From the NCBI GenBank assembly GCA_025463905.1, contig JAODBJ010000131.1, positions 1 to 33,961 of the forward strand: a DNA stretch of 33,961 bases, read 5' to 3'. Position numbers and translations under genes: made by a program. The DNA is from Actinomycetes bacterium (GTDB taxonomy: Bacteria > Actinomycetota > Acidimicrobiia > IMCC26256 > PALSA-610). The notes beneath the pieces are model-generated. The model had not been told where the DNA came from. It ran no database searches and saw only the letters and a program-made list of their open reading frames with translations. Positions 22,792 through 28,061 of this stretch are shown piece after piece. Positions within the stretch are counted from its first letter, which is position 1. Every line of letters starts with the position of its first letter.

Positions 22792-22884
22792 CGGGAGCCG
22801 AACTTCGACGAGCGTTCCCGGAGTGCCCCGCGGCCGGCTCCGGTGCTCGTATGCTCCCGCCGTCGCCGCGCACCGGGGGTTTTG

Positions 22885-24189
22885 TTGCCGAAGGCAGGCC
22901 GGGTCGTCGTCGTGTTCGGGCTCGCCAGTATCAGCGCGCTTCTCAGTGGGGGTCGGGCGCACGCAGTCACCACCACCACGACGACGTCGACGGCGTCGGC
23001 CGCTTCCATCGGCGGCATGCTCACCGTCGACAATCACCCGGTTCCGGGCGTGCGCGTCACTGCCTCCCGAGGCGCAGCCGAGGTCGGGCATGCGGTCTCC
23101 GATCGGCGCGGTGCGTGGCGGATCGGGGTGCCCGGCCCGGGTACCTACAAGGTGGCACTCGACGTATCGACCTTGCCGTCGGGCGTCCGCGCCGAACGCC
23201 CTGAGCTTGCCGAATATCGAGTGTTCGGATCGTTCGCGCAAAGCGCGGGGTTCACACTGTCGGCCGGGCAGTCGAAAGCCCCGGGCGGGCAGTCGCGCCT
23301 CGATGTCTTCCTCAACCTGTTTGTAAGCGGAATCCGCTTCGGGTTGATCGTGGGTTTGTGCGCGGTCGGCCTTTCGCTGATCTACGGCACCACGGGGCTC
23401 GTCAATTTCGCGCACGGGGAGCTCGTGACGTTCGGCGCGCTGATCGCGTGGTTGGTGAACACCATGAGCTCGGGGCCCAAGCTTCCACTCGTGTTGGCGG
23501 CGATCATCGGAATGATCGCGACCGGTCTCCTCGGCGCCACCCTCGAGCTTGGCTTGTGGCGGCCGATGGTGCGACGGCGGTCGGGAGCGAGCGGACGCAT
23601 GCTCGTGTCGATCGGGCTCGCGCTCTTCCTGCGGTACATCTACGAGGTGATCTTCAAGGGCGCGCCCCGCTCTTTCCGGCAGTACGCAGCGCCGAGCCCC
23701 GTAAAGCTCGGGCCGCTGCAATCGCCGGTTCGCGACTACGTCATCATGGCCATCTGCCTTGCGACGCTGCTCGTCGTGGGCACCATGCTTCGGCGTACGC
23801 GGCTCGGCACCGCGATCCGCGCCGTCTCCGACGAACGTGATCTCTCGTCGGCATCGGGCATCAACGTCGAAGGGGTGACGCTTCTCGTGTGGATCAGCGG
23901 TGGGATGTTGGCTGCGCTCGGCGGTGTGATGCTCGGTATGGGATCGCAAGGAGTGCAATGGAACATGGGGTTCCGTCTGCTGCTGACGATATTCGCGGCC
24001 GTTGTACTGGGCGGTCTCGGCAACCCGTACGGCGCGATGGCTGGTGGTTTGGTCGTCGGCGTGGCATCGCAGGTCGGCACCTACTGGTTACCGTCTGACC
24101 TTCAGTTTGCGATCGCGCTCGTCATCCTCATCCTCGTATTGCTCGCACGACCGCAAGGCATTCTCGGCGTGCGAGAACGGATCGGCTGA
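22885..24189 (+). CDS. livH: branched-chain amino acid-type ABC permease (LivH-like) fused to N-terminal signal peptide and Ig-like domain
   Basis: The C-terminal ~300 residues are a LivH-type permease: IRFGLIVGLCAVGLSLIYGT, then TGLVNFAHGELVTFGALIAW, the loop IRAVSDERDLSSASGINV and VLGGLGNPYGAMAGGLVVGV. Before it stands an N-terminal Sec signal (about 1-27, ending GGRAHA), a Thr-rich linker and a ~90-residue carboxypeptidase-regulatory-like Ig domain (GGMLTVDNHPVPGVRVTASR, SDRRGAWRIGVPGPGTYKV) reaching residue ~125. Usual LivH is ~290-310 residues, so the added module is an exported sensor or docking domain by inference. Start is uncertain: TTG at 22885 with GGGGG upstream fits best; TTG 22882 or GTG 22843 are alternatives (448 residues). 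Confidence 0.88.
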   Translation: MPKAGRVVVVFGLASISALLSGGRAHAVTTTTTTSTASAASIGGMLTVDNHPVPGVRVTASRGAAEVGHAVSDRRGAWRIGVPGPGTYKVALDVSTLPSGVRAERPELAEYRVFGSFAQSAGFTLSAGQSKAPGGQSRLDVFLNLFVSGIRFGLIVGLCAVGLSLIYGTTGLVNFAHGELVTFGALIAWLVNTMSSGPKLPLVLAAIIGMIATGLLGATLELGLWRPMVRRRSGASGRMLVSIGLALFLRYIYEVIFKGAPRSFRQYAAPSPVKLGPLQSPVRDYVIMAICLATLLVVGTMLRRTRLGTAIRAVSDERDLSSASGINVEGVTLLVWISGGMLAALGGVMLGMGSQGVQWNMGFRLLLTIFAAVVLGGLGNPYGAMAGGLVVGVASQVGTYWLPSDLQFAIALVILILVLLARPQGILGVRERIG

Positions 24190-24194
24190 CTGGT

Positions 24195-25190
24195 ATGAAC
24201 TGGACCGGGATTCTCAGCGATGGCGTCCGCGCCGGCCTCGGCATCAACGCCGCGATCTACGCGCTCGCGGCCGTCGGCTTAAACGTGCAGTTCGGCTACG
24301 CCGGCTTGTGGAACTTCGGCCAGGCGGGTTTCTTGCTCGTCGGCGGCTACGGCACTGCTATTGCCGTGAGCAGTTGGGGGCTGTGGCTGCCGTGGGCGGT
24401 GCTCGTCGGTATCGCGGCGTCGATCCTGCTCGGACTCCTGCTCGGCGTCCCGACGTTGCGCCTGCGCGGCGACTATCTGGCGATCGTCACCATCGCGGCC
24501 GCCGAAATCCTGCGCATCGTCGTCAACTCCACGAAGGTGCAGTCCGTGACCGGAGGACCGCAGGGCATCGGTGGGTTCGCGAACTGGTTTTTCGATCACA
24601 ACCCGATCGCGCGGGGTCGCTACGGATTCGGCACGATCACCTACGACCAACGTCAGTTGTGGGTGACGCTTGTGACGTGGGTGCTTGTCGCGCTCGCGTC
24701 CGTGTTGGTTGCGCTACTCGTGCACAGCCCGTGGGGGCGGGTCGTTCGTGCCATCCGCGAAGACGAGGACGCAGTTCGATCGCTGGGCAAGAACGTGTAC
24801 TCGTACAAGATGCAAGCGCTGTTGCTCGGCGGTGCGATCGGCGGCGTCGCGGGGATCATGCTCGTGTTCGATCAACAGTTCATTCAGCCCGACCTCTTCC
24901 AGTCGGCCATCACCTTCTACGCATTCGCCGCGCTGATCCTCGGTGGCACCGCGCGCATTTTGGGTCCAATTCTGGGCGCGATCGCGTTCTGGTTCCTCGT
25001 CGAGGGCGCAGACAGCTTCCTCGGCAACGCAGTCGACCACAACTTCCTCGGAGTCGGCCACCTGGTCGATCCGACGCAGATCGGTACGTTCCGCTTCGTG
25101 CTCGTCGGGCTCGTCATCATGCTGCTGGTGATCTTCCGGCCTCAAGGATTCCTCGGGTCCCGGCAGGAAGTGATGCTCGGTGAGCAATAG
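24195..25190 (+). CDS. livM: branched-chain amino acid-type ABC permease (LivM-like)
   Basis: The 331-residue permease shows LivM-family signatures: AVGLNVQFGYAGLWNFGQAG near the N-terminus, LRLRGDYLAIVTIAAAEILR, VRAIREDEDAVRSLGKNV (coupling-loop type) and FYAFAALILGGTARILGPIL. About nine hydrophobic helices are seen. It starts 5 bases after the LivH-like stop; its end overlaps the LivG-like start by 11 bases. It pairs with the fused LivH-like permease to form the channel of the importer. Confidence 0.93.
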   Translation: MNWTGILSDGVRAGLGINAAIYALAAVGLNVQFGYAGLWNFGQAGFLLVGGYGTAIAVSSWGLWLPWAVLVGIAASILLGLLLGVPTLRLRGDYLAIVTIAAAEILRIVVNSTKVQSVTGGPQGIGGFANWFFDHNPIARGRYGFGTITYDQRQLWVTLVTWVLVALASVLVALLVHSPWGRVVRAIREDEDAVRSLGKNVYSYKMQALLLGGAIGGVAGIMLVFDQQFIQPDLFQSAITFYAFAALILGGTARILGPILGAIAFWFLVEGADSFLGNAVDHNFLGVGHLVDPTQIGTFRFVLVGLVIMLLVIFRPQGFLGSRQEVMLGEQ

Positions 25191-25977
25191 CTCCGACGCC
25201 GTTCCGGATCCGATCCTCGTCGTGGAGTCGGTCGTACGACGCTTCGATGGCTTGGTTGCGGTATCGGTCGATCACCTCGCGGTGCATCGTCACACGATCA
25301 CCGCGCTCATCGGTCCCAACGGAGCGGGCAAGACGACGTTGTTCAACGTCTTGACCGGTTTCGATCGTGCCGACGCAGGAAGTTGGAAGTTCGATGGCGT
25401 CGATGTCTCCGGCTGGCCCGCGTATCGCCTCGCCCGGCAGGGCATGGTCCGAACGTTCCAACTCACCAAGGCGTTGGCGGGCTTGACGGTGCTCGACAAC
25501 ATGCTTCTAGGCGCCTCCGGTCAGTCGGGCGAGCGCATCGTCGTCGCTCCGTTTCGCTTCCGCTGGCGTGCGGAGGAGCGCGCAACACACGAGCGCGCAC
25601 TCGCACTGCTCGACGACTTCGGATTGTCGGCGAGACAGCGCGATCTTGCTGCGACGTTGTCGGGCGGTCAGCGCAAGCTGCTCGAGATGGCCCGCGCGCT
25701 GATGGTCGAACCGAAGCTCGTGATGCTCGACGAACCTATGGCGGGCGTCAACCCGGCACTGGTGCAATCGCTTCTGCACCATGTGCAGCGATTGCGCGAC
25801 GAAGGTCGAACCGTCGTCTTCGTGGAGCACGACATGGACGTGGTCATGTCTATTTCCGATCGCGTCGTATGCATGGCCGAGGGACGGGTCATCGCCGACG
25901 GCACGCCGGAGGAAGTTGTCGACAATCAGGCCGTCGTCGACGCGTACCTCGGACAGCGCCACGCGAGAGCACGATGA
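25180..25977 (+). CDS. livG: branched-chain amino acid-type ABC ATPase (LivG-like)
   Basis: The 265-residue ATPase has Walker A GPNGAGKTT (45-53), LivG-typical GMVRTFQLTKALAGLTVLDN, signature LSGGQ (160-164), Walker B LVMLDEPMAGVNP (180-192) and switch His217 in VEHDMDVVMSISDRV. It begins with GTG inside the LivM-like gene. With the LivF-like protein it forms the ATPase heterodimer. Confidence 0.95.
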   Translation: MSNSSDAVPDPILVVESVVRRFDGLVAVSVDHLAVHRHTITALIGPNGAGKTTLFNVLTGFDRADAGSWKFDGVDVSGWPAYRLARQGMVRTFQLTKALAGLTVLDNMLLGASGQSGERIVVAPFRFRWRAEERATHERALALLDDFGLSARQRDLAATLSGGQRKLLEMARALMVEPKLVMLDEPMAGVNPALVQSLLHHVQRLRDEGRTVVFVEHDMDVVMSISDRVVCMAEGRVIADGTPEEVVDNQAVVDAYLGQRHARAR

Positions 25978-25978
25978 G

Positions 25979-26749
25979 ATGAGCGTCGGGAACGCTGTCC
26001 TTCTCGATGCACGCGACGTCGTCGCCGGCTACCTCCCCGGCGTCGACATCTTGAACGGCTGCAGCGTCGAGGTGCACGAAGGTGAGATCGTCGGGGTCAT
26101 CGGGCCCAACGGCGCGGGAAAGTCGACGCTGTTACGGGCAATCTTCGCGCTCGTGCCGCTCCGGCGAGGTGCGGTGCATCTACGGGGCGACGACATCACG
26201 GTGCGTCCGCCGCACGAGCTCGTGCGGCGCGGCGTCGGCTACGTGCCGCAGCTGCACAACGTGTTCCCAGCCCTGACGGTCGAGGACAACCTTCGCATGG
26301 GTTGTTTTCTCCGCCCCCACGACTTCCACGAACGGCGAGACGAGCTCCTCGGCCTGTTGCCGCGTCTCGGCGAGCGCTTGCAGCAGCGCGCTGGTTCGTT
26401 GTCGGGTGGTGAACGCCAGATGCTCGCAATGGCCCGCGCGCTCATGATGCAACCAACGGTCCTGCTGCTCGACGAGCCATCGGCCGGCCTGTCGCCGATG
26501 ATGCAGGACGACGTCTTCGACCGGATCGTCAGCGTGAACCAGAGCGGCGTGTCGGTGCTGATCGTCGAGCAGAACGCGCGCCGGTGCCTCGAGGTGGCTC
26601 ACCGCGGCTACGTGCTCGATCAAGGTCGCAACGCCTACACCGGAACGGGCGCCGAACTGCTCGACGACGACAAGGTCGTGCAGCTGTATCTCGGCACACT
26701 CGCGCGCGCCGGGGCCCGGGGTGAAGCCCCGGGCCCCGATAACGCATGA
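25979..26749 (+). CDS. livF: branched-chain amino acid-type ABC ATPase (LivF-like), with hairpin-encoded C-terminal tail
   Basis: The 256-residue ATPase has Walker A GPNGAGKST (42-50), signature LSGGE (141-145), Walker B LLLDEPSAGLSP (162-173) and the LivF-type VLIVEQNARRCLEVAHRGYV. The ATG follows one base after the LivG-like stop. The LivF core ends around LYLGT (240); the last ~13 residues (RAGARGEAPGPDNA) are encoded by a perfect 12-bp GC palindrome and look like an added tail. The convergent lipoprotein gene ends 7 bases away. Confidence 0.95.
   Translation: MSVGNAVLLDARDVVAGYLPGVDILNGCSVEVHEGEIVGVIGPNGAGKSTLLRAIFALVPLRRGAVHLRGDDITVRPPHELVRRGVGYVPQLHNVFPALTVEDNLRMGCFLRPHDFHERRDELLGLLPRLGERLQQRAGSLSGGERQMLAMARALMMQPTVLLLDEPSAGLSPMMQDDVFDRIVSVNQSGVSVLIVEQNARRCLEVAHRGYVLDQGRNAYTGTGAELLDDDKVVQLYLGTLARAGARGEAPGPDNA
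26710..26738. terminator. perfect 12-bp GC hairpin at the convergent livF/lipoprotein gene ends
   Basis: CGGGGCCCGGGG (26710-26721), loop TGAAG, CCCCGGGCCCCG (26727-26738). The stem is perfect and lies inside the last codons of the LivF-like gene, ten bases before its stop, opposite the end of the convergent lipoprotein gene. It has no U-run. It can act as a two-way terminator or mRNA-end stabiliser, or be a REP-like repeat captured by the reading frame. Confidence 0.55.
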
Positions 26750-26756
26750 GTGTCGG

Positions 26757-28061
26757 TCAGCCGTTGATCTTGATCTGCGCCGCACCCGGGACATTGGCGT
26801 AGCCGCCCTTGGCGTCGTACTGCCAGACGTCGTACACGCCGTTGCCGGGCTCGTGTTTGCTGGTGAGGTCCACCGGGCCCGACGCGCCGTCGTAGTCGAT
26901 GTCGGTGCCGGCCTTGAGGAGGTCGGAGCACGACTTGAAGTTCTGGCACTTCGTACCGCCAAAGCTCACCGCGATCATCTTGGCCTTGATCTTGGCGGGA
27001 TCATCGGACCCGGCCGCCTGCGCGGCGAGCGCGATGAGGTTGGCGCAGTCGTAGTAGTACGAGGAGAAGATCGTGTCGATCTTCGTCGCCGCGAACCTGG
27101 CGATGAACGGGTTCGTCACGCCCGACGGTGCCGCGGCCGGTGCCGTTCCCTTGATCCCTTGCACAACTGCGGGATTGCTCGGATCGACCGCCTTGGACAA
27201 CGAAGAACTCTGCATGCCGTCGGCCGTGTAGACCTGAACGTTCTTCGGTCCGACGTTCTGGGCAATCATTTCCTTGAGCACCTTGCCGCCATCGTCGTTG
27301 AAACCGATCACGACGATCGCGTCGGCACCTTTGCCGGCCACCTTGGAAACGTCTGCTCTGTAGTCGGAAGACTTCGGGTCGTACGCGACATTGGCCACCA
27401 CATCGGCACCGCCGCCGGTGAGTGCCTTCGACAGCGAGGAACCGAAGCCCGTGCCGTACGAATCATTGCGCGTGAGGATCGCGATCTTGTGCTTGTTGCC
27501 GCTCAACACCAGCTGCGCGAGTGCTGGGCCCTGCAGATTGTCCGACGGCGCAGTGCGGAAGAAATACCCGCCTCCGGCACCACCGGCGACCGACAGCGCA
27601 GCGGACGTGGTCGAACCCGAACAGGCAACGACACTGTTCGTCTTGATCTTGTCGATGATGCCGAGCGCGGTTGTTGACGAGGCCGGGCCGACGATGGCGT
27701 CGACCTTGCCGGACGTGAGCAAAGTATCCAGCGAGCTCGACGCAACGTCGGGGCTCGTGCCGTCGTCGGCATGCTTGACGACAACCGGCTTACCGTTGAC
27801 GCCGCCGGCCGCGTTGATCTCGGCCACGGCCATCGTCAGCGGCGTGTTCAGCGACTTGTAGATAACAGAGAGATCACCGGACTGCGGTAGTAGCGCACCC
27901 AGCACGAGCTGGCCGTTGACGTTGCCACGCGCTCTTGACGAAGCACCCGTGGTGCTCGTCGATCCTGACTTCGCATTCTTGCTGCTGCTGCCGCATGCGG
28001 CCGCAGCGAGCGCGAGGACCACGACGATGGTGATCGCACCCAGGTTCTTGCGTTGTGCCAT
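26757..28061 (-). CDS. branched-chain amino acid-type ABC substrate-binding lipoprotein
   Basis: The 434-residue lipoprotein starts at an ATG with GGGAGA upstream (in-frame codons further upstream carry no signal). The N-terminus has a hydrophobic core and lipobox LAAAAC (Cys23), followed by a Ser/Thr-rich linker. The mature part has the type 1 periplasmic-binding fold: VLGALLPQSGDLSVIYKSLN, AVAEINAAGGVNGKPVVVKH, DAIVGPASSTTALGIIDKI, and GADAIVVIGFNDDGGKVLKE. It faces the permease/ATPase genes convergently with a 7-base gap and is the obvious partner of that importer. A TAGGTT hexamer 32 bases upstream of the start could be its -10. The ligand is unknown. Confidence 0.93.
   Translation of the reverse strand: MAQRKNLGAITIVVVLALAAAACGSSSKNAKSGSTSTTGASSRARGNVNGQLVLGALLPQSGDLSVIYKSLNTPLTMAVAEINAAGGVNGKPVVVKHADDGTSPDVASSSLDTLLTSGKVDAIVGPASSTTALGIIDKIKTNSVVACSGSTTSAALSVAGGAGGGYFFRTAPSDNLQGPALAQLVLSGNKHKIAILTRNDSYGTGFGSSLSKALTGGGADVVANVAYDPKSSDYRADVSKVAGKGADAIVVIGFNDDGGKVLKEMIAQNVGPKNVQVYTADGMQSSSLSKAVDPSNPAVVQGIKGTAPAAAPSGVTNPFIARFAATKIDTIFSSYYYDCANLIALAAQAAGSDDPAKIKAKMIAVSFGGTKCQNFKSCSDLLKAGTDIDYDGASGPVDLTSKHEPGNGVYDVWQYDAKGGYANVPGAAQIKING

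Follow-up and report, generated by a model that had tools for sequence, protein, structure and literature searches.

The window analysed here, a stretch of 33,961 nucleotides from an Actinomycetes bacterium (genome of 4.85 Mb in 366 contigs), raises the question of why the first permease of a livHMGF operon should open with a signal peptide and an exported Ig-like domain. The gene at 22885-24189 (+) is single and uninterrupted, starts with TTG and encodes 434 aa, comprising, in order, a cleavable-type signal peptide, a short linker, a beta-sandwich of ~87 residues and a nine-helix LivH-type permease (Table 1). Its enclosing ORF (22843-24189, +) matches PF02653 (BPD_transp_2; 5e-46) with ~137 residues ahead of the match, and the permease scores 157.4 bits against a curated cut-off of 26.8. 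LivM, two ATPases and a binding protein are all present, as expected for a LivH-type operon. Permease core and operon (LivM/G/F plus binding protein) are thus shared with LivH of the HAAT-type importers (PF02653; E. coli LivHMGF), from which the window gene differs by its added signal peptide and exported beta-sandwich; against the LivH equivalog NF008011 (PRK10740), it reaches 99.5 bits, far below the NCBIfam cut-off of 379.

Table 1. Features of the extended permease gene and its operon in the window.
Feature	Coordinates	Strand	Residues	Basis
Shine-Dalgarno-like GGGGG (22875-22879) and spacer before TTG	22875..22884	+		counterpart GGGAGGT in L038
Signal peptide (MPKAGRVVVVFGLASISALLSGGRAHA), AxA-type cleavage site	22885..22965	+	1-27	orthologue conservation; helix 4-21 in model
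Thr/Ser/Ala-rich linker, composition unconserved	22966..23004	+	28-40	pLDDT <50 at residues 23-36 in model
Extracytoplasmic prealbumin/CarboxypepD_reg/SdrD_B-like beta-sandwich	23005..23265	+	41-127	profiles, model, Foldseek, alignments
Short linker into TM1	23266..23295	+	128-137	model, alignment
LivH-type permease core; nine helices predicted, N-out; residues 306-323 form the coupling helices	23296..24189	+		PF02653 5e-46; model; charges
LivM-type permease, without extension	24195..25190	+		PF02653 6.6e-52
LivG-type ATPase	25180..25977	+		ABC_tran, BCA_ABC_TP_C
LivF-type ATPase, start MSVGNAVLL (from ORF translation)	25979..26749	+		ABC_tran 1.7e-33
Substrate-binding lipoprotein, lipobox LAAAAC, Peripla_BP_6, convergent	26757..28061	-		profile match

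The layout of the binding-protein gene is unusually stable. Among 73 domain-bearing loci it is convergent in 62 and on the same strand in one, the other ten either yielding no such gene or being cut short by the contig; the convergent placement downstream of livF holds from the window's own class through to Arthrobacter and Nonomuraea (L041, L050-L123, L160). Beyond the operon, recurring neighbours comprise only the operon itself, its antisense frames and small groups.

To place the start codon, we drew on an 87%-identical relative (L038), in which a 1-base indel at ~22878 destroys the frame from GTG 22843 while sparing the second TTG (22885) and a GGGAGGT ~5 bases upstream of it; on these grounds we assign the start to TTG 22885, as the sequence-only reading had implied. 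The stretch just upstream (22840-22876) is also well conserved with L038 and includes the sequence TATGCT, similar to a –10 box, so that a promoter immediately upstream of livH is possible.

That the fusion is an annotation artefact, with an internal start for the permease and a chance or separate ORF upstream, is barely conceivable in general and ruled out for the window gene. A few orthologues do lack the domain, and the two livH copies of one genome (G127) both appear split across overlapping frames—one between domain and permease (L089), the other inside the permease (L124)—perhaps through indel errors in the assembly. Against this stand fused open frames at about 100 loci and the dN/dS values obtained with L038 (0.19 for the domain, 0.13 for the permease), by which measure the domain is under purifying selection. 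Moreover, no in-frame start codon occurs between residues 113 and 154 of the window ORF; since TM1 spans residues 138-170, an internal start near 23310 cannot yield an intact permease here. The sequence-only reading had named such a start, a frameshift between the two parts and a failure of the domain to be conserved as the outcomes that would overturn it; the fused frame is uninterrupted, and the domain is kept across the lineage.

The signal peptide proposed from the window alone is corroborated by its relatives: of 98 domain-bearing orthologues tested, all have the h-region and 95 an A/V/S/T-x-A motif. The Thr-rich linker proposed alongside it fared less evenly, as it is seen in the window gene and its nearest relative, while the linkers of other members differ in composition. 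An N-out topology of the permease core is strongly supported by its cytoplasmic coupling helices and by basic segments at residues 227-240 and the C-terminus, although four basic residues in the outer loop 258-281 mean that the positive-inside evidence is not clean. With the core N-out, the domain lies outside the membrane, where it had originally been placed.

As to what is exported, several lines of evidence agree on a prealbumin-like (Ig-like) fold, which we regard as strongly supported. In the window, the match to CarboxypepD_reg (PF13620; 3.7e-5, 24.4 bits) falls under the Pfam gathering score of 32.3. However, one orthologue (L064) lies above it with 47.1 bits, and 52 of 54 orthologue domains match the family independently, more than by chance, in keeping with the carboxypeptidase-regulatory-like, Ig-like domain first suggested. 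A single-sequence search for a solved homologue returned none. The fold was read from profiles and from an AlphaFold2 model of the whole protein, built from an alignment of 69 sequences with the plasmid record L041 left out (pLDDT 89.4, pTM 0.84). In this model, the domain (residues 41-127) is nearly all-beta, its pLDDT, taken in ten-residue blocks, exceeding 80 throughout and 90 in most, and the permease part resembles PsaBC and BtuC. Profile search and Foldseek converged on the same structures (SdrD B, TIE, UafA, CnaB2, carboxypeptidase-regulatory and transthyretin-like), with a profile match to SdrD at 8.9e-13 and a Foldseek probability of 1.00 with TM (query) 0.60-0.69 to SdrD, TIE and CnaB2.

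Nearly all conserved residues of the domain are residues of the fold (G55, G76, Y88, L97, P98, F123); the main polar exceptions lie in two turns, D93 and T/S96 in LDxxTLP and T/S72 and D73 in TDxxG. Fold and motifs (TDxxG, P-G-Y, TLP) are shared with the prealbumin-like domains of the SdrD B, CnaB, SpaA and CarboxypepD_reg kinds, of which those compared mostly reside within large surface proteins or enzymes, whereas here a single domain sits on an ABC permease. CnaB isopeptide domains carry a conserved Lys/Asn/Glu triad; the domain alignment has no conserved Lys or Asn column fit for such a bond, and we therefore do not count the domain among them.

This architecture recurs across the whole of the window's class as well as in further members of the Actinomycetota, and is thus no oddity of one genome or lineage. 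Matches at E <= 1e-40 were found in 121 of 296 genomes of the class, most of those outside a small-genome family (f22) reaching into the N-terminal region, and a domain-only profile run against 396 genomes of the phylum gave about 57 hits at E < 1e-12, spread over 53 genomes. Each of the 30 loci fetched from this search proved to be a LivH fusion, one being truncated where its contig stops; carriers include Arthrobacter sp. StoSoilB13 and Nonomuraea gerenzanensis, both with livHMGF and a convergent binding protein. A scan of a genome collection yielded three loci. In a plasmid collection, 587 records had a LivH homologue, of which 585 failed to cover 80% of the extended query, and the six other LivH-like permeases scored in the window's own genome (L002-L005, L007, L008) lack the domain.

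How was the domain acquired? On a permease tree of 111 rows, the domain label needs three changes, counting a frame-split G127 copy as domain-bearing, and the simplest reading would be a single gain at the clade's base followed by about two losses; as the tree was rooted merely for display and includes several long outgroup branches, this is not proof of a single gain. A housekeeping-type importer has gained an extracytoplasmic permease domain in the Actinomycetota, probably once, and kept it across distant classes. Two domain-less members (L102, L113) retain, as read from their sequences, a hydrophobic, signal-like stretch ahead of the permease and appear to be relics of domain loss, which argues that export of the N-terminal tail and possession of the domain are separable. 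At one further locus (L064:1175-3565, genome G185), the domain occurs twice in tandem ahead of the permease.

Extended permeases are known from elsewhere. In Gram-negative urea importers, UrtB (543 aa in Shinella sp. PSBB067) likewise places a signal peptide and an exported N-terminal domain of ~220 residues before a LivH-type permease, and the general plan thus has a precedent. The UrtB domain, however, is HEAT-like and helical, with HEAT_2 matched only in UrtB, while that of the window is a nearly all-beta sandwich and hence a distinct version; with 142.3 bits against a cut-off of 250.3 for the UrtB equivalog TIGR03409, we set aside an assignment to UrtB-type extended permeases. The expectation that LivH proteins begin directly with membrane helices consequently holds for some permeases and not always, given UrtB and a lineage in which the extended form is the rule. 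Nor does the gene belong with permeases bearing fused extracytoplasmic substrate-binding domains, such as GlnPQ and OpuA (PMC8025302): those domains bind substrate, whereas the window's domain has a prealbumin-like rather than a binding-protein fold, and a separate lipoprotein is encoded in the operon's vicinity. Literature searches for a LivH-type permease combined with an exported beta-sandwich found no paper, and the combination of exported Ig-like domain and LivH-type permease appears to be undescribed. Together with UrtB, it shows that exported N-terminal domains of unrelated folds can be accommodated in the LivH family, so that simple domain deletion offers a way to test what permease-borne domains contribute to binding-protein-dependent import.

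What might the domain do? We tentatively favor, at somewhat below even odds, a mainly structural extracytoplasmic cap at the mouth of the permease. The signal peptide would secure outward translocation of the permease N-terminus, which would fold outside the membrane as a prealbumin-like beta-sandwich, joined by a linker of ~10 residues to the outer end of TM1. The folded domain would then pack on the permease's outer mouth, stabilising it and framing the landing place of the lipoprotein binding protein, and could thus help the importer without any conserved, specific surface recognising binding protein or substrate. Read indirectly, the pTM of the model suggests that the placement of the domain on the permease is predicted with some confidence, the permease alone making up 69% of the residues. 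Conservation centred on fold residues also speaks for a cap. The main domain-less clade has four members, and these share no permease position that changed along with domain loss. That two lineages lost the domain with no consistent change at conserved permease positions argues that such a cap is not needed for folding everywhere, and its absence from the six other LivH-like permeases scored in the genome likewise counts against it.

The main rival is a specific docking module that captures or retains the binding protein. A parallel is the MalF P2 domain, which lies between membrane helices of an importer whose permease belongs to a different family. Like the domain studied here, it is an accessory on the binding-protein side of the permease, and in MalFGK2 it contacts MalE (PMC3150292). 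Side of the membrane, shortness of the linker and a binding protein encoded convergently beside the operon in 62 of the 63 domain-bearing loci where it was found all fit docking, one of the roles that the sequence-only reading had proposed. Loci without the domain, however, have a binding protein of the same family at the same position, and co-variation does not favor such a contact. Mirror-tree partial correlations on 62 loci recovered the known contacts (LivH–LivM, +0.74; LivG–LivF, +0.40; permease–binding protein, +0.41), and the 95 fastest permease columns, taken as a control, gave +0.43 with the binding protein, whereas domain and binding protein yielded –0.36 (5–95%, –0.45 to –0.27), in what is a weak test given a short, fast-evolving domain. 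The domain's highest partial correlation among the components of the system was with its own permease (+0.45), partly expected within one gene. As neither the mirror-tree comparison nor the charge analysis below, both of them weak tests for such a domain, favors docking, we prefer the structural cap and regard docking as possible yet rather unlikely. Equally doubtful is its wider corollary, a phylum-level class of HAAT importers in which the exported Ig-like domain is a dedicated docking or gating element, with a MalF-P2-like function reached by independent N-terminal fusion in the LivH family.

Less likely again is an envelope anchor or spacer, whereby the domain would bind cell wall, S-layer or an envelope protein, or set the distance of the permease. 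Its best structural and sequence relatives are indeed stalk domains of surface proteins (SdrD B/CnaB kind), weaker domain matches in the phylum fall mostly in ORFs of 1000-5000 aa and the tandem domains of L064 would suit a spacer; yet no conserved surface patch extends beyond the two turns, and the short linker would hold the domain at the membrane. A ligand sensor or substrate-capturing domain, for which its extracytoplasmic location would be apt, is highly improbable: the few conserved polar residues form almost no site, and the fold is not that of a binding protein, such that the ligand sensing once suggested finds no support.

Finally, the domain's net charge correlates more closely with the binding protein's (rho 0.50) than with those of the cytoplasmic ATPases (0.39, 0.31). 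That the domain's charge tracks that of the binding protein fits its location outside the membrane and speaks against charge-based docking, for which complementary charges had been considered and like charges were found. Both domain and binding protein are basic in the window and acidic in most of the other loci (62 loci), a co-variation that may perhaps reflect adaptation to external pH.
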